This document shows, piece by piece, positions 15,997-53,960 of a stretch of 64,000 nucleotides of DNA. Source of the DNA: Coprococcus phoceensis (GTDB taxonomy: Bacteria > Bacillota > Clostridia > Lachnospirales > Lachnospiraceae); assembly GCF_900104635.1 (NCBI RefSeq), contig NZ_FNWC01000007.1, forward strand, positions 1,835,421 through 1,899,420, in the 5' to 3' direction. How positions within the stretch are numbered: the stretch's first letter is position 1; every line of letters begins with the position of its first letter. The notes beneath the pieces are model-generated. The model was not told the origin of the DNA, made no database searches, and was given only the letters and a program-made list of their open reading frames with translations. The translations under genes were made by a program, and so were the position numbers.

Positions 15997-16674
15997 TTAA
16001 TTTACTCTCTTACAATATACGAGATATCGTTTTGCATTCGATCCGTATGGATGACATGTCAAAAGAGTAACCATATCTTCTCCTTGACGAATCAATAATT
16101 TGTCTGTCTGCGACGGCTCAATAATTTCGATATCAGAAACCTCATATTTCAACACTTCTCGAAAATTTTCAATTACTACCGGATCTCCCACCTGAAGCTT
16201 TTGAATATTCCGGAACATTGCCGTCTTTCGAAATCCCCGATGGGCGGCAATCACACAATTTGTATTCTCGCCTCCTACCGGATACGAAGTTTCCGCCAAA
16301 TGAGCCGCCCCCATAGACATATTCTTTTCGCTGGCGCCAAGATAAATTGGCAGCTCCACATTCAGTTTATCAATTTTCACGAATCCAACGACACCGTCCT
16401 CAATTCCATAACTACTCAAATCAATTGTGTTCTGCTCATACAAAAAAGGATCTCGCACTCCGGTTCGTCTGGATGCATACAAAGCTTCATTTCTCTTTAC
16501 CAGCTCATGATACAACTCTTCTACTTTTATTTTCGAATTTCGTTTTTCTTTCTCAAATTCTTCCTTTTTCTCTTTTGCTTCCTGTCGAAAAAGAAAATCT
16601 GTAAGCTTTGGATACTGGGAAATCAAAATTCCTGCCACAATTAAAATAACACCTAGAATATAAGCCTTTTTCAT
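15997..16674 (-). CDS. Class C sortase (pilus-specific), second copy
   Basis: A membrane transpeptidase of 225 residues that joins pilin subunits. It has an N-terminal membrane anchor (residues 5-22), a coiled Lys/Glu-rich stretch, the class C lid motif DPF in VRDPFLYEQN near residue 76, the catalytic His in AAHRG, the catalytic Cys in TLLTCHPYG near 209, and the Arg in KRYLVYC. There is no C-terminal membrane helix, unlike the preceding sortase. Its start overlaps the end of the other sortase gene by 4 bases, implying translational coupling. It is the last gene of the tip-backbone-sortase-sortase pilus operon. Confidence 0.9.
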   Translation of the reverse strand: MKKAYILGVILIVAGILISQYPKLTDFLFRQEAKEKKEEFEKEKRNSKIKVEELYHELVKRNEALYASRRTGVRDPFLYEQNTIDLSSYGIEDGVVGFVKIDKLNVELPIYLGASEKNMSMGAAHLAETSYPVGGENTNCVIAAHRGFRKTAMFRNIQKLQVGDPVVIENFREVLKYEVSDIEIIEPSQTDKLLIRQGEDMVTLLTCHPYGSNAKRYLVYCKRVN

Positions 16675-17570
16675 AATTTCCTTTTTCTCCTTCTCTTTTT
16701 TCCGTACTTACGATACCGAAGAATTGTCATCGTAATTTTACCAGTCCCAAATACACCTATTACAATCGACACGCCGATAATGTAGTACCGCCACGGCATC
16801 AATTTTCGAATCAACGATGGAGTCTGCTCTTTTTCTTCTTTTTTTACATACTCAGTACGCTCTCCTGTGACCAAAAGTCTATGTGTATTTACCCCGTACG
16901 GAGTGCATGTCACAAGCGTCACAAGATCCTCACCATCTGGGGTGATTGTCAGATTCTGCAATTCTTCCGGCTCCACTGTCTTAATCTCTTTCACTTTATA
17001 GGCATGTGTTTCATCTAGTATATGAATGTAAATTTCATCCCCAAGTTTCATCTCATCCAGCCTGGTAAACAGTTCCGCTCTCGGAAGTCCTCTATGTCCT
17101 GTCAAAACCGTTCTTCGATTCTTGCCTCCAATTGGAAGTGCCGTCATCTCCAAATGTCCAACTCCTTTTCTCAGAACTTCCTCGCTCGTTCCGTGATATA
17201 CCGGAAGGTTCAGATCAAGCTTGGGAATCTCCAGATAACACATAACACCCTCCTCATCCAAATTCAAAACTTCATCATAATTGTCCGGAACCGCATATCC
17301 GCTCCCAACGATAAACGGGTCATGTACAGGATCTCCGGAAAGATTTTCATTATAGATTTTTGCCTCTTCCCACTCCGCTTCAATCTCTTCCTTTGAAGTA
17401 TCTTCCACATTTGCCTTATAGATATCGATCACTTTATTTTGACTGAGTTCTGCAAAAAAATTGCTGATAAACGGATACAAAAAGATTCCCACACCAAGAA
17501 GGATAGATAAAATTGCAACTCCCCATATAATTACTCCGCTTCCCCTTTTTTCCGTATTTTCTGTCTTCAT
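16671..17570 (-). CDS. Class C sortase (pilus polymerase), first copy
   Basis: A 299-residue pilus sortase with membrane segments at both ends (about 14-34 and 262-282), the full class C layout, and a basic C-terminal tail. The lid carries DPF in DPVHDPFIVGS, the catalytic His is in TGHRG, the Cys in TLVTCTPYG, and the Arg in THRLLV. It should cut the threonine-glycine bond of the ITGG-type sorting signals and link subunits through a pilin lysine. It lies 70 bases downstream of the backbone gene, with a hairpin between; AAAGGATG precedes the ATG. The division of labour between the two sortases cannot be told from sequence. Confidence 0.92.
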   Translation of the reverse strand: MKTENTEKRGSGVIIWGVAILSILLGVGIFLYPFISNFFAELSQNKVIDIYKANVEDTSKEEIEAEWEEAKIYNENLSGDPVHDPFIVGSGYAVPDNYDEVLNLDEEGVMCYLEIPKLDLNLPVYHGTSEEVLRKGVGHLEMTALPIGGKNRRTVLTGHRGLPRAELFTRLDEMKLGDEIYIHILDETHAYKVKEIKTVEPEELQNLTITPDGEDLVTLVTCTPYGVNTHRLLVTGERTEYVKKEEKEQTPSLIRKLMPWRYYIIGVSIVIGVFGTGKITMTILRYRKYGKKRRRKRKL

Positions 17571-17640: not shown

Positions 17641-19347
17641 CTATGCACGTCTTCTTCTCTGATAACCTGTAATCAGCATAATACCGCCTGCTACAAGAAC
17701 AATACCTACGATTGAGAAGATAACAGTTCCCATACCACCTGTGATTGGCATGATTGGAGGTTTTCTGTTGACTACAGTTTTGTAAACAATATTTGTTACA
17801 TTTCCATCAAAATCTCCTGCATCATCAACTTTTCCATCTTCATCATCATCTTTGATCACAACTTTAATCAACTCGTCCAACAATTCATATCCATCCGGAG
17901 CTTTTGTCTCTTTCAGATAGTATGTTTCTGTTGCCAAACCTTCTAAATCTAATTTTCCTTCACTGTCAACTACTAAAGTTGTTGTTGTATTTGTATCTTC
18001 CTCTTTTGCCAAATGATACTTTCCATCTGACATTTTCACAAACGTCATTTCTGTCTTTTGATCATCTCTTAATAACTGGAATTCCGCACCTGCTAATGGT
18101 GTTTTTCCATCTTCTTCTACCTTTGTCACATCAATTGCATAAGTATATACTTTTTCTTTATCTTCGGATGGTGTATAAGAATCCCAATCATATGGATCAT
18201 TATTCTGTCCTACGTACGCCTTGTTTTCCAACGGATCTGCATCTTCCGGATATCCTGGATCTCCCGGACGTAAAATCGCATTTTCATTGATTGTACCTTG
18301 GTATGTCACCTCGATGGCTTTCAGTGCAAATGTGCTTCCATTTTTTTCATATGTTGCATATTTTCCCATTAAAGCATCATAATCGAAGTCTAAAATAAAA
18401 TCTGCTAATTCTTGTCCTTCTGCTGCTTCCAGATTTCCTTTCACTCCATCTTTTCCATTGTCTTTTGCATCATAATATAATTCAAAAGCTTCTACATCTT
18501 CTTCTGATGTACCAATTTGTTTTTTATCTCCATTCTCATAAACAGCATTTACAGTAAGATTGTTTTCCTTATATGTATGTCCAAATGTAATACCAATCGG
18601 AAGGTAGTCTCCAATACGGAAAATTTTTGCTGTCGCATCTTCCGGATAATATGGAACAGGTACATTTACCGTATAATTCACTTTTTGACCAATCTCTACG
18701 GTGTGATCATCAACTTCTTTTTCAATCGCTGCCGGACTTCCTTTAATTGTCACTTCTGCATCATATGCGAACCATTCTTTTTTGGTTTCATCATAGACTG
18801 GTACAATATTAGCTGTAGCTGGTGCATATTCATAAGTACTATGTTCTCCACTTTCATCTGGAGTTGTCAAAATCAAATATTGACCCATTTCCATACCGTC
18901 AAATATTAACGTAGGTTTTTGTCCTCTCATTGTTGCAGAGGCAGCCTTATTTAACTTAATTTCTCCACTTATGATTGCATCTTCAAGTTTTCTCATAAGA
19001 TTACTCAGCTCAGCGCCTGTCACTTCTTCAAAAGATTTTGGAACTTCATTGTTATTTTCCACATAACTTTCAAATCCTTTTTGACTGGTCAACCAACTTG
19101 CTACTCCATCTGCCCATACATAAGTAGGATTGATTGGTTGTTGATTGTCATAATCAAATTTTACATCCACGATTTTATAGACATTCACATTCGCTCCTGC
19201 ATCCGTCTCTTTTCCATTTACTGTAATCGTATGTTTCTCATTCTTTTCAATGCTTGCTTGAACCGGCACCCCCATTGAAATTGTAAGTACCAACGCAATA
19301 CAGGCTGCCACTATTTTTGATAATAATTTCATCCCTTTGTTTCTCAT
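17641..19347 (-). CDS. Backbone pilin with Cna-B type domains and sortase signal
   Basis: Major subunit of a sortase-polymerised pilus, 568 residues. It has a signal peptide (residues 1-32, ending VPVQAS), an N-terminal domain, a middle domain opening AIEKEVDDHTVEIGQKV near 207, a C-terminal Cna-B domain with the E-box YYLKETKAPDGYE near 476-488, and a cell-wall sorting signal MPITGG near 533, a membrane helix and QRRRR. The E-box glutamate normally promotes an internal Lys-Asn isopeptide bond. YYPED near 233 may be near the pilin-motif lysine region, but I cannot fix the acceptor lysine. AAGGGAG precedes the ATG. It is the second gene of the operon, 38 bases after the tip gene. Confidence 0.92.
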   Translation of the reverse strand: MRNKGMKLLSKIVAACIALVLTISMGVPVQASIEKNEKHTITVNGKETDAGANVNVYKIVDVKFDYDNQQPINPTYVWADGVASWLTSQKGFESYVENNNEVPKSFEEVTGAELSNLMRKLEDAIISGEIKLNKAASATMRGQKPTLIFDGMEMGQYLILTTPDESGEHSTYEYAPATANIVPVYDETKKEWFAYDAEVTIKGSPAAIEKEVDDHTVEIGQKVNYTVNVPVPYYPEDATAKIFRIGDYLPIGITFGHTYKENNLTVNAVYENGDKKQIGTSEEDVEAFELYYDAKDNGKDGVKGNLEAAEGQELADFILDFDYDALMGKYATYEKNGSTFALKAIEVTYQGTINENAILRPGDPGYPEDADPLENKAYVGQNNDPYDWDSYTPSEDKEKVYTYAIDVTKVEEDGKTPLAGAEFQLLRDDQKTEMTFVKMSDGKYHLAKEEDTNTTTTLVVDSEGKLDLEGLATETYYLKETKAPDGYELLDELIKVVIKDDDEDGKVDDAGDFDGNVTNIVYKTVVNRKPPIMPITGGMGTVIFSIVGIVLVAGGIMLITGYQRRRRA

Positions 19348-19385: not shown

Positions 19386-22300
19386 TTATAATTTACCTCG
19401 TTTTCTCTGTAAAACTAAATGCACTGTAATCATCAATCCACTTATTGTGACTGCTGCTCCTAAAATAAGGAAACGATCAATTCCACGTCCCCCTGTAATT
19501 GGTGGATTGATTGGTTTGTAATTTATAATAGAAAATCTATTTTCTGCTTCTTTTATTGCTGTAGGTTTTTCCCCATATTCCCCTGGTATCTCTTTAAAAA
19601 TAACTCTTTTATCTCCTCCTGGAACAACAATCATATTCCATTGACCAACAGATCTCATATACCCTTCTGGTGCTTTTGTCTCTATCAATCGGTAAGTAGC
19701 TTTTGTAAATTTTACGGTTTTGTTTTCATCGTTTACAAAATTCAAATATCCGCTCCATCTATCAGAAGTCGCTTTTCCAATCCATTCCCAGCATTCTTGT
19801 CGTTCCCCATTTTTGATAACTTTATTATGGATTTCATCATTATGCTCTTTGGGATTTACACATTTTAATCGATAAAGTTCAAATGTAGCCCCCTCTAATG
19901 CATGATCTGAATCGTCAATTTTATATAATCTGATTACCTCGGAAGGTGGATTATAATTATTCACTACATCTACAGAGGTCTTTGATTGTGTTCTGATTCC
20001 AATACTCTCCACTTTTTTGGTTGTAACAGGCTCTGCTGTCTGTCCATTTTGTGTAACTTTCATGATTGTGTCATATGTTTTTTCATTTCCAACAATTTCT
20101 TCCACTGAAACAACCTTTCCCGCTGGAAGCCAAAATTCTATATTTTCTTTTGATTTTAAATTAAACTTGAGAATCCCATCTTCAACTGCACAAGCAATTT
20201 GCTCTGTCGCTTTCTCACCGCCGACTGCCGTTTTTTCTCCAATAATTGAAGCAGGTATTTTTTCCTCTTCTGATGGATCTAAATTAATTTGAAAATTAAA
20301 TTCCGTCTCTTCATTGTCTCCTTCAAAAAATTCATCTACAGTCTTTGAAACTGCAATTTTACCTTGTTTGACAACCGTTTTCCCGTTATTCCCAAGAAAT
20401 ACAACAACCGAACCATTCTCTGAAATCTTGTCCTCACCACTTATTTCATATATATCCGAATTTTCTTCAAGCATTGATTTGTAAACATATCCAGTTGTTC
20501 CTGTTGCATTTCCATTAGTGCCTTTGTCTTTCTCACCCAATGTTTCTTGTCGGAAAGTTCCCTGCGGAATAGCCCATCCTGCATTTTCATCTATAGCCGT
20601 CACCAAATTCAATGATGCTTTATCCATCCGAGTAAATTCCTGCATTCCTCCATCCAATTCATAGACTATCTTTTGATAGTAATACTCATTTCCATCATCT
20701 GCATTTGGCTTTTCCCCAGTGTAGAGTTTGTAGTCATTTTCACCGCTCTTAATATAAATCGAAGTATTCTCTGTATAGTAATAATATTCATTCTTTTCCG
20801 ATACAGTAAAGTGAACCGAAGTCTTTGCCTCTGGAACTTCTGCTTTATCTTCCCATGCATTTGAATAAAATGTTCCTGTCTTTGATATATCACCCTTCTC
20901 TAAATATCTATATCCAGAATCTACTTCACTCAAATCATATTCATTGATTCCATCTCTCAGACCCACCTCATAAAAAAGATTTACCGGATACGCTATTGTT
21001 TTCTCAGTATGGCTATCCTCGCCATTTGATGCATTTCTCAACACGTTATATTTCACAAGCGGAATCAAAGATGACGGAACGAAAAATCTCACTGTCTGTA
21101 CATGTGTTGTAAGATTGTTTTCAACTCTTACACCGAGATACATCAACTTTTCACCAGATATTGTTCCAGACGAACTTCCATAATAAAAATAAGACTTATT
21201 TATAAAGGCAGCATTCTCAGGTTTTACTTCCTCATATGCACAAGGTGCCAAATATGTTCCATCTTCTTTCGCATACCAGGCAATATAATTACTGGCATTC
21301 CCACTCGATGCATCATAACAAATTTGCCCTGTATCTTGTGCATTTTTTAAAAGTTTCTCTGCCTCTTCTTCAGTGATAGTTAAGCGCTCTATTAACGATT
21401 TTAGGAATTCTGTCTTTTCTTCTGCAGTGGCATTTCCATCTTTTTTCATTTTTTCTGCAAATGTGCTTCCTGTATGTAGTTTTCCACCATACATTACTCC
21501 TGTTATATCACCTACGCTCATATATTCTCCAAGCGTATCTTCAAATGCAAGATATCCTGAATAATTGGAAGCGCCTTCTTCCGTTGGCAATTCTGCTGAT
21601 TGAATTTTTATCCTCTCTACAAGTTCTTCAAACTTTGCGATTAAGTCGTCCGCACTGCTTGCATTAAAAAACTCATCTACATAATATCGGTCTGTACATT
21701 CTCCTGATTCCGCTTTTTGTAATTGATTATCCACCTTTGGAACATCTATTGATTTTCCAACCGCTTCTAAATGTACTGTTTCTCCCTCCGCTGCCTCTAA
21801 AAATGTATTCCACCAACTGTCTAATTCAACTTCTGTATTCTCCGAAGGATTTAAAACCATGCGGGCATACTTGTTATCATCACCAGTAAGCTGTGCTAAC
21901 AACCCTACTGTATAAAATAATGGGGTCTTAGAATATGATTCCGACAACATTTTTTTTACCCATGCCCCTGTCAGCTGTGTAAGAAACGCCATACGAATAT
22001 CTGTCTCTCTGCCGTATCCTACCGTAGAATCTCCTCGCTCCGCATAATGCACACTTGCCGCTGTCGGTGCACCATCACTCATAAGTGTGATAACAGGAAT
22101 TCTTCCTTCACTATTTCCATTCGAATCAGGAATTAATTTTTGGAAGGCTTCCATCAAACCATTTTGAATATAAGTGTTCCCTTGCACTGCATAAGACAAC
22201 TCTTCATTATACATCGGATTTCCAGCAGAATTTTTAACATTCTTTCCGAGTTCAATCCTGGAACTACCAGGGTAATTTATTACTGAAAAAAATATTCCAT

Positions 22301-22922
22301 CATTAGTTGTATATCTGTCTAACGGCAACGGACAGCTTGCAGTATCTTCTTTGGAATCTTCATCATAGTTAAGTGCACCCGAATACAGAACAACCCCTAC
22401 CCTGTTTTTTTTATTCATATCTAAAATTTCCTGAATTGTACTATTTACCGCCTTTACCAGCATGCTAATTTTTTGGTCATCCTCATTTTCCGCCATACTT
22501 CCAGAAATATCCAATACAAGCATAACATCCACCGGAATTGCCGCCTCTAGTGTAACCGATTTCGTTGAGCTAAGTGCTGACAATCCCACCAAAAAATTAT
22601 CCGTTTCTTTTCTGGATATTGTAGTACTATTGTTATCGCCTTCAATTGACTGCAATGTGATATCTCCATCTACAACCGTCTTATCCGTCCATATCTTACC
22701 GGCATTAGACGTATCCGTCTCACTTCCGAAATACTCCTGCCAACTGTTTATCGTACTCACATCAGCAACTCTTGTAACTGCCTGCTCCGGCTCCTCTTTC
22801 TCCCCTTCCGGTGCCGAGAACAACGTTACTTGAAAAATCATTCCCATCAGCATTGCGACGCAAAGAGCTGCCGCAATCATTCGATGCATCCTATTGGTTT
22901 TCAAACCAAATTTGTTCATCAT
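19386..22922 (-). CDS. Large pilus tip adhesin with vWA domain and sortase signal
   Basis: A 1178-residue surface protein: signal peptide (about 1-37), a von Willebrand A domain with an intact MIDAS (DISGSMAE near 138, and LMSDGAPT further on) interrupted by long insertions as in pilus tip adhesins, beta-rich middle regions, a Cna-B domain near 1030-1130 with the E-box YRLIETKAPEGYM, and the sorting signal PPITGG followed by a membrane helix and QRKRGKL. The MIDAS suggests metal-dependent binding of a host or mucus ligand. It is the first and promoter-proximal gene. Two adjacent ATGs follow AAGGAGGG; the second has the better spacing. Confidence 0.9.
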   Translation of the reverse strand: MMNKFGLKTNRMHRMIAAALCVAMLMGMIFQVTLFSAPEGEKEEPEQAVTRVADVSTINSWQEYFGSETDTSNAGKIWTDKTVVDGDITLQSIEGDNNSTTISRKETDNFLVGLSALSSTKSVTLEAAIPVDVMLVLDISGSMAENEDDQKISMLVKAVNSTIQEILDMNKKNRVGVVLYSGALNYDEDSKEDTASCPLPLDRYTTNDGIFFSVINYPGSSRIELGKNVKNSAGNPMYNEELSYAVQGNTYIQNGLMEAFQKLIPDSNGNSEGRIPVITLMSDGAPTAASVHYAERGDSTVGYGRETDIRMAFLTQLTGAWVKKMLSESYSKTPLFYTVGLLAQLTGDDNKYARMVLNPSENTEVELDSWWNTFLEAAEGETVHLEAVGKSIDVPKVDNQLQKAESGECTDRYYVDEFFNASSADDLIAKFEELVERIKIQSAELPTEEGASNYSGYLAFEDTLGEYMSVGDITGVMYGGKLHTGSTFAEKMKKDGNATAEEKTEFLKSLIERLTITEEEAEKLLKNAQDTGQICYDASSGNASNYIAWYAKEDGTYLAPCAYEEVKPENAAFINKSYFYYGSSSGTISGEKLMYLGVRVENNLTTHVQTVRFFVPSSLIPLVKYNVLRNASNGEDSHTEKTIAYPVNLFYEVGLRDGINEYDLSEVDSGYRYLEKGDISKTGTFYSNAWEDKAEVPEAKTSVHFTVSEKNEYYYYTENTSIYIKSGENDYKLYTGEKPNADDGNEYYYQKIVYELDGGMQEFTRMDKASLNLVTAIDENAGWAIPQGTFRQETLGEKDKGTNGNATGTTGYVYKSMLEENSDIYEISGEDKISENGSVVVFLGNNGKTVVKQGKIAVSKTVDEFFEGDNEETEFNFQINLDPSEEEKIPASIIGEKTAVGGEKATEQIACAVEDGILKFNLKSKENIEFWLPAGKVVSVEEIVGNEKTYDTIMKVTQNGQTAEPVTTKKVESIGIRTQSKTSVDVVNNYNPPSEVIRLYKIDDSDHALEGATFELYRLKCVNPKEHNDEIHNKVIKNGERQECWEWIGKATSDRWSGYLNFVNDENKTVKFTKATYRLIETKAPEGYMRSVGQWNMIVVPGGDKRVIFKEIPGEYGEKPTAIKEAENRFSIINYKPINPPITGGRGIDRFLILGAAVTISGLMITVHLVLQRKRGKL

Positions 22923-23046
22923 TTCCCTCCTTTCTTTCTAGAATATCCAATAAAAACTGCAACGAAGTCATTGGAATGTATCTTATTTCTACTGAAGATG
23001 CTTTTGAGAGATTCTTATAAAATACATCAACTATTTCTTTTTACAC

Positions 23047-23086
23047 AAAAAAACAGCAGACCTCTCAACAAAGATAGGTTCTGCCG
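23047..23086 (-). terminator. Intrinsic terminator in the pilus operon leader
   Basis: Minus-strand CGGCAGAACC (complement of 23077-23086) pairs with GGTCTGCTG (complement of 23054-23062) with one bulged A, followed by seven U (23047-23053). It lies about 125 bases upstream of the tip gene on the same strand. Confidence 0.8.
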
Positions 23087-23179
23087 CCTCCATAGGAGCA
23101 GGATCGTATACCATCCTGCTAACTGGGAAATATCCGCCTATGAGGCATCGTACCCACTATGTTTAAATTTATATGCATT
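23047..23179 (-). ncRNA. Unclassified structured leader RNA upstream of the pilus operon
   Basis: About 130 bases, from the predicted start near 23179 to the terminator U-tract. Stem P1: GCCUCAUAGG (complement of 23137-23146) with CCUAUGGAGGC (complement of 23086-23096), one bulged G. Inside P1 is hairpin P2, an 8-bp perfect stem (23097-23104 with 23113-23120) whose loop holds the self-complementary GUAUAC. Then comes the terminator. An alternative fold is possible: GUGGG with CCCA around a GCCU-CAU-AGGC hairpin, which would break P1. That suggests a switchable attenuator or riboswitch, or a small RNA. It does not match the c-di-GMP-I, c-di-GMP-II, T-box, SAM or cobalamin motifs I know. Confidence 0.6.
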
Positions 23180-23185
23180 TTCTCA

Positions 23186-23214
23186 ATTTTAATAAAGCAA
23201 TATTAAGTTATCAA
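23186..23214 (-). promoter_or_regulatory. Proximal promoter of the pilus leader RNA
   Basis: Minus-strand TTGATA (complement of 23209-23214), 17 bases, TAAAAT (complement of 23186-23191); 5 of 6 matches in each box. Transcription would start near 23179. Confidence 0.7.
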
Positions 23215-23246
23215 TCCAAAAAATTATACGCCTTCGTTACGGTAGT

Positions 23247-23275
23247 ATTTTATCCTACTTTATAGCATATTGCAA
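23247..23275 (-). promoter_or_regulatory. Distal promoter of the pilus leader RNA
   Basis: Minus-strand TTGCAA (complement of 23270-23275), 17 bases, TAAAAT (complement of 23247-23252). It lies about 60 bases upstream of the proximal promoter and close to the divergent RHH gene. Confidence 0.5.
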
Positions 23276-23287
23276 CATAAAATTGCA

Positions 23288-23306
23288 TATAATGATATAT
23301 TATCAT
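23288..23306 (+). promoter_or_regulatory. -10 box and RHH-type operator for the small regulator
   Basis: TATAAT at 23288-23293 overlaps the inverted repeat ATGATA-TAT-TATCAT (23292-23306), which ends about 15 bases before the start codon. The position at the transcription start fits autorepression by the ribbon-helix-helix protein it precedes. The -35 is poor. Confidence 0.45.
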
Positions 23307-23321
23307 AAAAAAGGAAATGTT

Positions 23322-23474
23322 ATGAAGCCATTAAAAAACAAAGTAAGTATCACACTAGATGAGACTGTAATTGAAAAAATCAAAGACTTGGCAGAAGAGG
23401 ACGACCGGAATTTCAGTCAATATGTTAATATGGTTTTAAAGGACTGGATAAAGCGTCATGAACAATATCTCTAG
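23322..23474 (+). CDS. Small ribbon-helix-helix (CopG-like) DNA-binding protein
   Basis: A 50-residue protein with the RHH layout: a beta strand KVSITLDETV (residues 7-16), helix 1 IEKIKDLAEEDDR, a turn with NFSQ, and helix 2 YVNMVLKDWIKRHEQ. Such proteins bind DNA as dimers through the strand and often act as antitoxins or repressors. No toxin gene is adjacent. The start is set at the ATG after AAGGAAA; thirteen further upstream in-frame codons overlap the operator and lack a ribosome site. It is divergent from the pilus leader promoters, so a role in pilus control is possible but unproven. Confidence 0.75.
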   Translation: MKPLKNKVSITLDETVIEKIKDLAEEDDRNFSQYVNMVLKDWIKRHEQYL

Positions 23475-23522
23475 TCAAGTCCCAATGTTCTTCTTTCTTA
23501 CAAGAAAGACTTTTCTATGACG

Positions 23523-23571
23523 AAAATGGAGCAGCCGACACTCCTCAAAGTGTCCTCTGCTCCATTTTTTT
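23523..23571. terminator. Terminator between the convergent RHH and c-di-GMP genes
   Basis: AATGGAGCAG...GACACT pairs with AGTGTC...CTGCTCCATT, followed by seven T on the plus strand. It overlaps the stop of the c-di-GMP gene on the other strand and has T-rich sequence that way too. Confidence 0.85.
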
Positions 23572-26542
23572 ACACTTCCTCATTCACTACCTGAATCAGT
23601 TTCACTATGTTATCTCGTATCTTTGGCGGCACATATTGTGGTTTTGAAAACAAATATCCCTGAAGATAATCTACCCTTAACCTGATAACCTGTTTCAGTT
23701 CTTCAATTGTTTCGATTCCCTCGGCAATCACTTTCATCTCACGCTCGTGCGCATAGCCCACAATATTTTCCACGATTTTGCATTTATCCGGATTACTGTC
23801 AATATTTCGAATAATGTCCATGTCGATTTTAATAAACTTCGGCGAGATGGATAACAACATTTTCTCGCTGTTATATCCGCTTCCATAGTCGTCCAAAGCC
23901 AGCTCTGCATGCCATTTTTTCATAAGCTTTGCTTTTTGATTTTGATGATTTTCATCAACACATTCTCCCTCTGTGACTTCCAACACTACATTTCCCAGAT
24001 ATTCAGCATATTTTTCCTCTAACTCCTTCACCTTTTTGTCACTTAAGATTTGATTGGCAATAGAGTTGATAAATATTTTTGAATGTTTATCAATCAAATT
24101 ATTATTTACGTGGGTCGCAAACGTATCAAGCGCAAGTTCCCACGTAAGTTCTTCTATCGCATTCAGACAGTTTTCTTCTTTGGCAACTTTTAAAATGTCC
24201 AGCGGAGACTTTAGTGATGGCGTAAATGATCTCATCAAAGACTCATACGCAAAGACGGATCCATCTTTACTGCTTATGATTGGCTGGAAATAAAACTGCA
24301 GTGTTTTATTTGTGATAATCGTCTTCAATTCATCTTTCACTTCTCTTTTGAACGAATCTCTCAGATACTCATCCCGATCAAAATCTGTCATATCCCCTTT
24401 ACTGCTATGCTTGATCTTATACATTGCATAGTCCGCAAAATGCTGCAGTTTTTCGAATGACTCACTGTCTTTTGGATACCAAGCCAGTCCTCCCGACACT
24501 TCCATCTGGAAAGATTTTTCTCCAATCGGAATTGTTGTCTTTCGAATTGCTGATTTTAAATGTGCAATCAACTCTGTAATCACCGCTTCATTCTCATACC
24601 CATAGAAGAATATATAGAATTCATCCCCTGAAATACGAGAAATAACCGTGTTTTCAGGGCTGTTGCGGACAAATATCTCTGCTGCTTTTGCAATATAGTT
24701 ATCTCCGTTTTCATGACCGTAATTGTCATTTATATATTTCAAATTATCTAAATCGAGCATCAATAATGCTGCTGTTTTCAGCTCAGCTCTATGGTTTTCA
24801 AACAAGTCATTCATAATCCTAATGAATGCACCGCGATTTAAAAGCCCTGTCAATGTATCGTGGTCACGTTCATATTCAATTACCTGTTTTTCAATCACAG
24901 TATTTGTCACATCTTCAATGATTCCGGTATAAATGTTCCCCTTCTCCAACAAGCGAAGATTCACATACACCACATTATTTTTATCCGGAATCTGAAACAA
25001 GTACTGTTTCTGACTATAGTCGGAAGACACAATATATTGCTTATATGGATCAAATGCTTTTTTAAACTGCTCTAGTGTCAGAGAGGCGGCATTGATTTCA
25101 TCATTGAGGAAAATCTCGAAAAAATTATCTGATAAAAACAGTTCCTGAGTATCGTCATTATATTCAAACCCAGCCAGCTTTACACTTGCCATCTGAAGCA
25201 AATTTGTAAACTTAGAGGAAGTATCTCTCACATTTTGATTCAATTTTTCCATCGTGCGCGCGAAGCGGTCAATTTCCGCAATATTTGTCCTCTTGAATCG
25301 AATCTCATCTTTTACATTTGCCCGGTCAACCTCTTCTGTCAGCTTTTTAATCGGTCTTGAAATGATATAGCTAAAGATAAGGCTTCCAACAATTCCCACT
25401 GCTACTGTCAGAACAATTGCAAAAAGCAAAATAGATTTTATCTTGCCAGTAAACGCAAACAGCGATTCTGTATCCGCAATCCCCACCAGCATCCACTGCT
25501 GGTTGCCATATGGCGTATTATCATTATAAATATTGAGGCGCTGCCTTGACGTGTATAATTTTCTGCCCTCACTGCATACATAATAGTCATTATCCAACTT
25601 AGTGAGATTCACTTTCGAGGTGTTCTTTTCACATGCACTTCCACTCACAGCAAATCCTTCCATCGACAGCTCACCATCTTGGTTGAGCGCAATCATATAA
25701 CAGCTGTTTTCATCATCTAACAACTCTGTGCTTGGCAAAATCTTACTTAAATAGTCTAATGTGATATCGATTCCCACAACTCCATAGACAACTCCTTTGG
25801 CATTGATCAGCGGAAGAGAATATGTAATCGCATCGTATTTAGTTCCATTCAGTCTGTACTTTCCGCCCCAATATCCCATCTCCTCAGCACTGTACTCTCC
25901 ATTACTTTTGAGTGCCTGCTGATATGGTGTATAGAAAAAATCATAATACGTGACATTTTCTTTTTGGAATTCAAAACGAGGACGCCACGCAGAGTCCGTC
26001 GCAATATTTAGCGATTTCACCACTTCCGCCGGCGCACGCTCGATTAATATATCGCCATTTTCACTTGAGCTCTTAGACATCGGATCAAAATCTCTTAAAT
26101 ATACTCCCGGTTTATCTTCAATCCCATCATCTAAATTATGGTTATTTAGAACGATATAGGCTCCCGTCACACGCTGTGAGCACATCGTCGAAATCAGCTG
26201 GTCTACTGCTTTTAGAATAAGTGGTTCCGCAGAGTCCGAACTTTCGTCCAGTGTTTCAAATTCAATACTTCCCTCTCTGTCCAGTTCTTCCGCAATCTTA
26301 TTAATATTGTCAGCTAGTTTTGACAGGTTCGACCAGTTGTTCACCATTTCGTTTTGCAGAGAGGCACTTCGGTTAATTACTTTTTGATCCACAATATCTT
26401 TTGCATTCTGATTTAGTTTTTCATAGATTCCGCCCACTCGGAGACTTTCTGATAAAATTGCTGTCTCAGCCAAAATAAGCATACACATCCCAAGCAGCAA
26501 ATAGGAGAAAATAGACTTGTTTTTTCTAAACTTTCGAAACAT
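23570..26542 (-). CDS. Membrane c-di-GMP signalling protein: Cache-HAMP-GGDEF-EAL
   Basis: A 990-residue sensor: membrane helix near 14-34, a large extracellular double-Cache domain to about 370, a second helix near 375-395, HAMP, a PAS-like linker, a GGDEF domain (about 550-720) and an EAL domain (about 740-985). The cyclase signature is SGDEF with the metal Asp in MLDLDNLKY; no RxxD inhibitory site is seen. The phosphodiesterase residues appear complete: ESL for EAL, NSIANQ, EVTEG, LDDYG, KIDMD, AEGIE, QGYLF. Both activities may work, and net direction cannot be read. The start at MFRKFRKNKS follows AAAGGAGG. It lies 31 bases downstream of a solute-binding lipoprotein and directly before the pilus region. 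Confidence 0.92.
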   Translation of the reverse strand: MFRKFRKNKSIFSYLLLGMCMLILAETAILSESLRVGGIYEKLNQNAKDIVDQKVINRSASLQNEMVNNWSNLSKLADNINKIAEELDREGSIEFETLDESSDSAEPLILKAVDQLISTMCSQRVTGAYIVLNNHNLDDGIEDKPGVYLRDFDPMSKSSSENGDILIERAPAEVVKSLNIATDSAWRPRFEFQKENVTYYDFFYTPYQQALKSNGEYSAEEMGYWGGKYRLNGTKYDAITYSLPLINAKGVVYGVVGIDITLDYLSKILPSTELLDDENSCYMIALNQDGELSMEGFAVSGSACEKNTSKVNLTKLDNDYYVCSEGRKLYTSRQRLNIYNDNTPYGNQQWMLVGIADTESLFAFTGKIKSILLFAIVLTVAVGIVGSLIFSYIISRPIKKLTEEVDRANVKDEIRFKRTNIAEIDRFARTMEKLNQNVRDTSSKFTNLLQMASVKLAGFEYNDDTQELFLSDNFFEIFLNDEINAASLTLEQFKKAFDPYKQYIVSSDYSQKQYLFQIPDKNNVVYVNLRLLEKGNIYTGIIEDVTNTVIEKQVIEYERDHDTLTGLLNRGAFIRIMNDLFENHRAELKTAALLMLDLDNLKYINDNYGHENGDNYIAKAAEIFVRNSPENTVISRISGDEFYIFFYGYENEAVITELIAHLKSAIRKTTIPIGEKSFQMEVSGGLAWYPKDSESFEKLQHFADYAMYKIKHSSKGDMTDFDRDEYLRDSFKREVKDELKTIITNKTLQFYFQPIISSKDGSVFAYESLMRSFTPSLKSPLDILKVAKEENCLNAIEELTWELALDTFATHVNNNLIDKHSKIFINSIANQILSDKKVKELEEKYAEYLGNVVLEVTEGECVDENHQNQKAKLMKKWHAELALDDYGSGYNSEKMLLSISPKFIKIDMDIIRNIDSNPDKCKIVENIVGYAHEREMKVIAEGIETIEELKQVIRLRVDYLQGYLFSKPQYVPPKIRDNIVKLIQVVNEEV

Positions 26543-31494: not shown

Positions 31495-32682
31495 TTAGAA
31501 GTACTCTTTTGCAAGTTCTTTAAATTTCGGCAGTGAATTTACAATGGTCTCATGCGATACGCAATATGCGATACGCACATATCCAGGACATGCAAAAGAA
31601 CTTCCCGGAACGATCAGTATATTATATTTTTTCGCCGCCTGACAGAACGCCTTCTCATCTGCCATCGGTGATTTCACAAACAGATAAAAAGCTCCTTCCG
31701 GCTTAATGCATTCAAATCCAAGCTCTGACAAACCGTTGTAAAGTGTCTCTCTGTTTCTGTCATAGTAAGAAATATCTGTCTTTTCATTCAAACATTTTTT
31801 TACGACCTTCTGCTGCAAAGTCGGTGCGTTGACAAACCCTAAAATACGTGTTGCCACACTCGCTGCTGAAATCAAGTCTTCACTGTCTGCCACCTCATCC
31901 GGAATCACAAGATATCCAATTCGTTCGCCCGGCAGCGAAAGCGATTTGCTATAAGAATAACCGACGATTGTATTGTTATAGTATTTTGTCAGATATGGTA
32001 CCTCCACACCATCATATGCCAGTTCACGATACGGTTCATCGGAAATCAGATAGATATCTGTTCCAAATTCTTTTTGTTTTGTTTCCATGATAGCAGCCAG
32101 CTTTTGAATCGTCTCCTCTGAATACACAACTCCGGTCGGATTATTCGGTGTATTTACGATAACCGCCTTCGTCTTTGCCGTAATCTTCTGCTCAAACTCA
32201 TCAAGTTTCGGCTGGAAATTTTCTGTATTAGGAGAAACCTCGACAAGCACACCATCAAAATTTGCTGTGTAACTTCTGTATTCTCCAAAATATGGTGCAA
32301 ACGCGATCACTTCGTCTCCCGGATTCAGCAAAATCTTCAACGCTACATTAAGTCCACCTGCCGCTCCAACTGTCATGACAATGTTATTTCCGGAAAATGC
32401 TGTCTCAAACCGCTCATTTAATGAATCTGCCACTGCCTGTCTCACATCTGCATAGCCTGCATTGCTGTTCGTATAGCCGTGAAGCGCCACCGGATCTTCT
32501 TCATTCAAAATCTCAATCATTGCCTGTTTTACAGCCTCCGGAGCCGGGACATTCGGGTTCCCAAGACTAAAATCAAACACATTCTCCGCTCCATAAATCT
32601 GTGCCAGACGATTCCCCTCCTCGAACATCGCACGGATTGCGGAGCTGTTTGCCACCATATTTTTCATCTTTTCTGCTATCAT
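31495..32682 (-). CDS. Class I/II pyridoxal phosphate aminotransferase
   Basis: A 395-residue fold-type I aminotransferase, close to aspartate or aromatic transaminases. Features: FDFSLGNPNVPAPEAV near 37, VGAAGGLNVALK, NTPNNPTGVVYSEE (the conserved Asn), SDEPYREL, the PLP lysine in SYSKSLSLPGERIGY, and VRIAYCVS with the terminal Arg. The exact amino acid cannot be told. It is followed by hisC and preceded by the DUF2156 gene, all closely spaced. Confidence 0.88.
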   Translation of the reverse strand: MIAEKMKNMVANSSAIRAMFEEGNRLAQIYGAENVFDFSLGNPNVPAPEAVKQAMIEILNEEDPVALHGYTNSNAGYADVRQAVADSLNERFETAFSGNNIVMTVGAAGGLNVALKILLNPGDEVIAFAPYFGEYRSYTANFDGVLVEVSPNTENFQPKLDEFEQKITAKTKAVIVNTPNNPTGVVYSEETIQKLAAIMETKQKEFGTDIYLISDEPYRELAYDGVEVPYLTKYYNNTIVGYSYSKSLSLPGERIGYLVIPDEVADSEDLISAASVATRILGFVNAPTLQQKVVKKCLNEKTDISYYDRNRETLYNGLSELGFECIKPEGAFYLFVKSPMADEKAFCQAAKKYNILIVPGSSFACPGYVRIAYCVSHETIVNSLPKFKELAKEYF

Positions 32683-53855: not shown

Positions 53856-53882
53856 GGTATATAGAAAAATGTACCCTGCTCT
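53856..53882 (+). terminator. Read-in terminator at the IS left end
   Basis: GGTATAT pairs with ATGTACC (53856-53862 with 53869-53875, one G-U), followed by CTGCTC and a run of seven T from 53881. It would stop outside transcription from reaching the transposase. Confidence 0.45.
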
Positions 53883-53960
53883 TTTTTTGTGATTAAAAAA
53901 AATGGTTGACAAATACCAAAAAAATTGCGGCGAAGCCCCTTGTTTATAGGAGGTGACGTC

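Follow-up and report, generated by a model that had tools for sequence, protein, structure and literature searches.

Worn-down ends of transposons are a known route by which bacteria acquire control elements. Naville and Gautheret (2010; PMC2965389) described mobile attenuators, which are terminators derived from insertion sequences (IS) that outlive the decay of the IS and are found upstream of an unrelated cellular gene, and explained their occurrence by terminators situated at the 5' or the 3' end of the IS.

In the current analysis we have examined a leader in front of a sortase-pilus operon in Coprococcus phoceensis, situated in a window of 64,000 nucleotides (the whole stretch of DNA that was analysed). 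By its origin and position the leader appears to fit the mobile attenuators, and judged from the nucleotides it would function as an intrinsic terminator. Like those elements it is of mobile origin and carries a terminator-like hairpin upstream of an unrelated gene, the gene of the IS having decayed. It differs from them in its hairpin, which stems not from the IS's own terminator but from the strand opposite to the coding end of the transposase, and in its U tract, which is absent from the 11 IS ends examined.

Riboswitches for c-di-GMP and other nucleotides resemble this locus in having a structured leader with a terminator near a gene for a c-di-GMP enzyme, whereas the leader of the window matches no Rfam family and has an IS origin. 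With regard to the IS1182 family, the source element has inverted repeat ends (ATAATCTCTCGGAATC) and a transposase that scores below the curated value of the family, and the window retains only pieces of the 3' end of the IS. Searches of the literature found nothing joining riboswitches with sortase-pilus operons in clostridia, nothing on the IS1182 family in Lachnospiraceae and nothing linking CopG-type ribbon-helix-helix regulators to sortase pili.

Organisation of the locus

The pilus operon behind the leader is encoded on the minus strand and comprises a VWA tip adhesin, a pilin of the SpaH/EbpB type and two class C sortases (Table 1). A GGDEF-EAL gene, which within the genus has been identified in the own genome only (1/10), is situated upstream of the operon on the same strand. 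Between a small divergent gene and the tip adhesin the minus strand carries a promoter-like site, the leader, a hairpin and then a tract of seven U (U7).

Table 1. Features of the pilus locus and its leader (positions in the window)
Feature	Position	Strand	Remarks
Class C sortase, second gene	15997..16674	-	
Class C sortase	16671..17570	-	
SpaH/EbpB-type major pilin	17641..19347	-	
VWA-domain pilus tip adhesin	19386..22922	-	ATG at 22922
Intrinsic-terminator-like hairpin and U7	23047..23087	-	Stem 23087-23054, U7 at 23053-23047; 41-nt stretch folds at -16.6 kcal/mol
IS-derived segment, profile positions 220-306	23048..23131	-	Antisense to transposase C-terminus; holds P2 and terminator
Alternative helix	23086..23146	-	GCCUCAUAGG (23146-23137) with CCUAUGGAGGC (23096-23086); core of antiterminator-like fold
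P1	23091..23161	-	CAUAG 23161-23157 with 23095-23091; GUGGG/CCCA part 23156-23153 with 23127-23124
P2 hairpin, 8 bp	23097..23120	-	23120-23113 with 23104-23097; same register as homologous IS hairpin
IS-derived segment, profile positions 74-145	23142..23215	-	Holds promoter-like site and leader start
Promoter-like TTGATA-17-TAAAAT	23186..23214	-	TTGATA 23214-23209, 17 bp, TAAAAT 23191-23186; consensus match only
50-aa ribbon-helix-helix (CopG/DUF6364-like) gene	23322..23474	+	Divergent from pilus operon; candidate pilus regulator

The first-pass annotation had described a structured leader with an intrinsic terminator ahead of the sortase-pilus operon and had taken it for a riboswitch or attenuator of no recognised class, perhaps a nucleotide sensor; the anatomy has been borne out, a new riboswitch class or nucleotide sensor has not, and an attenuator in the wider sense may still apply. 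The IS origin, an alternative fold stronger than the one proposed there and the divergent ribbon-helix-helix gene go beyond that annotation. The promoter sequence is present as described and agrees with the consensus at 10/12 positions, P2 is a stem of 8 bp whose loop GGUAUACG contains GUAUAC, and the terminator stem is followed by the U7 tract, which ends 125 bases upstream of the start codon of the tip adhesin. The promoter match alone is not significant, since four promoter-like sites are found in 22850-23600 against 2.9 +/- 1.5 in shuffles; on the pilus strand the same scan has revealed none downstream of U7 as far as the ATG of the tip gene. A stem of at least 8 bp is also formed by 85/2000 shuffles of the 32-nt stretch of P2. 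The terminator hairpin is unlisted by a simple terminator scan, probably because the scan accepts loops of 3-8 only. The leader of 131 nt folds at -45.9 kcal/mol (z -3.71), and none of 200 shuffles is equally low. One inverted repeat, of 8 nt with arms 86 nt apart, is observed in the region 23175-23330.

No RNA class had been recognised for the leader in the first-pass annotation, and the comparison with Rfam release 15 agrees, as nothing in the window reaches gathering scores and the region 22900-23320 gives at E<=10 only two weak matches, both to eukaryotic families.

Homology of the leader to the 3' ends of insertion sequences

A search with the leader in 397 genomes of the family has revealed one notable match besides itself, of 74% over 72 bases (blastn, E-value 3.6e-5 for its one genome, which is weak over 397 genomes). 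The motif ACCNNATCTTTGTTGAGNGGT, common to the leader and this match, has been identified with up to two mismatches in 43/397 genomes. Sixteen of its loci have been inspected in their context; at 12 of them the similarity extends over a single common element, and the other four are unrelated. On the opposite strand this element corresponds to the 3' end of a transposase gene, which is intact in L064 (495 aa) and broken in L024.

A profile of IS ends has been prepared from 10 of 13 related 3' ends with the window excluded, after dropping L025 and L060, which are truncated, and L080, which is a near-duplicate. This profile identifies two segments of the leader region (nhmmer), 23131-23048 with an E-value of 5.5e-7 (23.5 bits) and 23215-23142 with an E-value of 0.0068 (10.0 bits, bias 12.4). 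The two are collinear, in the same order and on the same strand, with 74 profile positions missing between them. A profile of the full-length IS (8 rows) gives E-values of 1.8e-5 and 0.023 respectively. None of 1000 dinucleotide shuffles scores above 4.6 bits against the 10-end profile, and the reversed window has no match to it at E<=10. The segment 23215-23142 lies outside the discovery match and so confirms the homology more independently, but it is rich in AT and has the bias of 12.4 bits.

A covariance model based on 17 IS ends (the 19 of alignment A2 without L060 and L123, which have internal deletions; the window is not included) finds the leader at 23146-23041 with 41.6 bits (E-value 6.3e-9 in the window and 3.5e-7 in the whole genome). 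The leader is the weakest of five matches of the model in its own genome, which are only IS copies, one decayed IS piece and the leader itself. At the protein level transposase homology of the window is undetected, both in a search of the own genome at E<=1 and by tblastn of the window locus (L132) at E<=0.01; of the transposase sequence the remnant retains no more than a C-terminal piece, in which one base is missing from the alignment with the IS as a gap. Searches for the leader DNA in phages and plasmids gave no match, and two exact leader patterns are absent from the viral contigs.

These comparisons show that the promoter-like site and the leader derive from an IS1182-like element, namely from its 3' end on the strand opposite to the transposase gene. 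The relatives that have been found are insertion sequences and their fragments and not pilus leaders, which argues against a new riboswitch class.

Conservation of the hairpins

The pairing has been compared in the window and in 19 IS ends, 20 sequences in all. The counterpart of P2 in the IS is paired in 94.0% of cells and has both sides changed at 6/12 pairs, the two terminator helices are paired in 97.1% and 93.7% of cells, and a further IS hairpin in only 62.9%. For the structure as a whole, 0/500 shuffles attain the covariation score, 21/500 attain the count of pairs with both sides changed and 48/500 that of further pair types; given the relatedness of the sequences and the mostly coding nature of the region, this covariation is suggestive only.

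In comparison with the commonest IS form, P2 of the window has six pairs unchanged; at one further pair UA is replaced by GC in a compensatory manner, at another an AA mismatch has been healed to GC, and three IS pairs adjoining P2 have been lost. A shift in register of P2 relative to the IS hairpin was considered and rejected. P1 forms in the window as had been described, but its relatives do not preserve it (pairing in 45.0% and 17.5% of cells), so that it is private to the window; the local GCCUC hairpin is paired in 36.8% of cells. Beyond the stem, the next 8 positions contain 3 to 6 T in the 11 IS ends, against the unbroken U7 of the window.

Owing to the gained U7 tract and the -10-like box, the remnant resembles a promoter followed by a 5' leader and an intrinsic terminator, features that are seen in the sequence and that would be active as such.

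The source insertion sequence and its spread

The own genome encodes two intact copies of the IS (1801 bp), one disrupted copy and smaller decayed pieces. The source transposase has no match in Pfam and is similar to the family NF033551 of NCBIfam (IS1182 family) with an E-value of 6.1e-14; the element is referred to as IS1182-like because the score of 51.8 bits falls below the curated cut-off of 270. Another decayed copy in the own genome (L131, G000:C7:1000656-1000929) has N-terminal and C-terminal pieces of the transposase joined, with stops. Within the window, the stretch 53878-53948 of the minus strand matches positions 1661-1725 of the IS profile, near the other end of the element (E-value 1.4e-5, bias 5.1), and agrees with two IS copies at 76-77% over 51-52 bases (blastn); a second IS remnant may be present here. 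By eye alone, ATAATTTTTTGGAT at 23227-23214 resembles the degenerate end of an inverted repeat, which is not claimed.

The covariance model has matches in 21/299 genomes of the family, own genome included. Thirteen model loci, mostly low-scoring and with the window locus among them, have been checked, and transposase pieces are found at 10/13 (tblastn E<=0.01); those without are L132, L151 and L152, the last of which resembles by eye an ordinary terminator. L150 (G239:C9, ~32427-32528) has an IS-derived-looking hairpin followed by U7 (-24.3 kcal/mol) between two genes of the same strand, and its transposase match is weak (E-value 0.007). The end CTGCYGTTTTTTTGTGTA, shared by the window and L150, was considered as a mark of a subfamily and dropped; it is found with at most one mismatch in 28/397 genomes against 9 for the reversed control.

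In the IS 3' ends L049, L052, L059 and L064 the hairpins in the transposase coding end change on both sides between copies, and one L049 copy seems to have two residues altered by changes in the stem that leave the pairing intact; a structural signal of this IS group is possible. A search for known RNA families at four IS loci gave one tRNA only.

Other adhesin loci and the divergent gene

The element had been expected at other pilus loci; it has not been found at 18 related adhesin loci, few of which are true pilus operons, and the sole model match there (L107, E-value 1.5) is at chance level. A pilin is present at L102, L110 and L108, and both sortases at L102 and L108. L102 (Lachnoclostridium sp. 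An181) and L110 are one organism, as 99 contiguous bases of the former are found again in the latter; the pilus operon of L102 lies behind scpB (by eye), without such a leader. The remaining loci are more distant relatives or have short flanks. Because few of the loci are full pilus loci and the closest homologues of the tip protein, P0001 and P0002 (98% and 80%), lie outside the set, the test is thin on true orthologues. Neither a homologous pilus leader nor an aptamer conserved among such leaders has been found in the search of 397 genomes or at the 18 adhesin loci. In genome contigs the tip adhesin gives no match with a single sequence as query and seven loci with an alignment; the search of viral contigs gave none.

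The protein of 50 residues encoded by the divergent gene lies just below the cut-offs of two families, CopG_antitoxin (27.2 bits, cut-off 28) and DUF6364 (26.7 bits, cut-off 27.3). Its homologues number 423 at E<=0.001, and an alignment of 14 shows strongly conserved residues. Among the 120 homologues listed, three share the size of the longest contig exactly with homologues of the tip adhesin: 15324 (P0127 and P0015), 33741 (P0183 and P0008) and 162085 (P0166 and P0029, the ribbon-helix-helix homologue given first in each pair). The gene therefore appears to accompany the pilus operon, including cases with a tip identity of only 42-55%; at L102, L103, L108 and L110 a search for it gave no match. 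An antitoxin role for the protein is possible, and it seems a likelier regulator of the pilus than the leader is.

Probable role of the leader

The leader is, with reasonable probability, a ligand-free intrinsic terminator derived from the IS that lowers or insulates transcription of the pilus genes. As the homology shows, the leader is what erosion has left of the 3' end of an IS1182-like element, with the pilus strand antisense to the transposase end. Two hairpins already present in the IS became P2 and the terminator stem, as the alignment shows, and later changes gave the unbroken U7 and the -10-like box. The terminator would stop most transcripts arriving from upstream while a fraction reads through into the pilus operon, whose expression would thereby be lowered and insulated; regulation proper would more likely lie with the divergent ribbon-helix-helix protein. 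This explanation is favoured by the collinear profile matches, which 0/1000 shuffles equal, by the match of the covariance model built from IS ends alone, by the helices of P2 and terminator common to the 19 IS ends, by the intact, disrupted and decayed IS copies of the own genome, by the U7 tract as against the U-poor IS ends, by the hairpin of L150 and by the published precedent. Against it stand the weak blastn match of the discovery, the lack of a protein-level transposase match in the window, the AT-rich and bias-corrected segment 23215-23142, the promoter count at chance level and an alternative fold that hints at more.

That fold bears on a regulated attenuator exapted from the IS, in which P1, P2 and the terminator (-45.9 kcal/mol) would alternate with it under the control of a protein, an RNA or the speed of transcription; we regard this as unlikely. 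The antiterminator of the first-pass annotation, CUGCUCC with GGAGGCGGCAG, has been discarded, as it costs about 17 kcal/mol (-29.0 against -45.9). The fold built on GCCUCAUAGG and CCUAUGGAGGC reaches -39.5 kcal/mol with the terminator arm blocked and also pairs the 5' end of the leader with the terminator loop. In the prefixes of 100 to 124 nt that were tried, its core helix gives the minimum. Among 500 shuffles of the 5' part, one equals the stability of its blocked state and 13 draw an equally large gain from the terminator arm. However, the terminator fold is ahead by 6.4 kcal/mol, and a very stable blocked state (at most 2/200 shuffles) is common among IS ends (5/8), so that only the gain sets the window apart from most of them (~3% level). 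This gain is ordinary in seven of the 8 IS ends and extreme in L070 (0/200 shuffles), which indicates that such folds arise without a pilus; the comparison of P1 covers IS ends. The alternative fold as modelled may leave room for regulated attenuation and does not show it. It is quite doubtful that the IS end was tuned after exaptation into an on/off attenuator of the pilus, P1 competing with the alternative helix and a trans-acting factor making the switch; if true, the antisense hairpins of a transposon would have become a regulated leader for surface pili.

An inert remnant, whose hairpin is no working control element and where pilus transcription starts elsewhere or is unaffected, would agree with the promoter count and with the decayed IS sequence of the element. 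We consider it improbable, as the scan lists no promoter-like site on the pilus strand in the 125 bases that separate U7 from the tip gene, and the hairpin has kept its pairing through the compensatory change and the healed mismatch and has gained U7. A riboswitch for c-di-GMP or another nucleotide, suggested by the structured leader with its terminator and by the GGDEF-EAL gene upstream on the same strand, is very hard to credit for a sequence that has no Rfam match, derives from an IS with P1 unconserved among the IS ends, is not found at the 18 related adhesin loci and in the own genome matches nothing but IS copies, a single decayed piece of the IS and the leader.

A strong fold together with a terminator and a promoter-like site can thus mimic a riboswitch while being derived from a mobile element, and the profile of IS ends provides a simple check for the screening of riboswitch candidates. 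If the IS-derived terminator is active, the leader would be a concrete case of a transposon remnant that sets the expression of pili in a gut-type bacterium.
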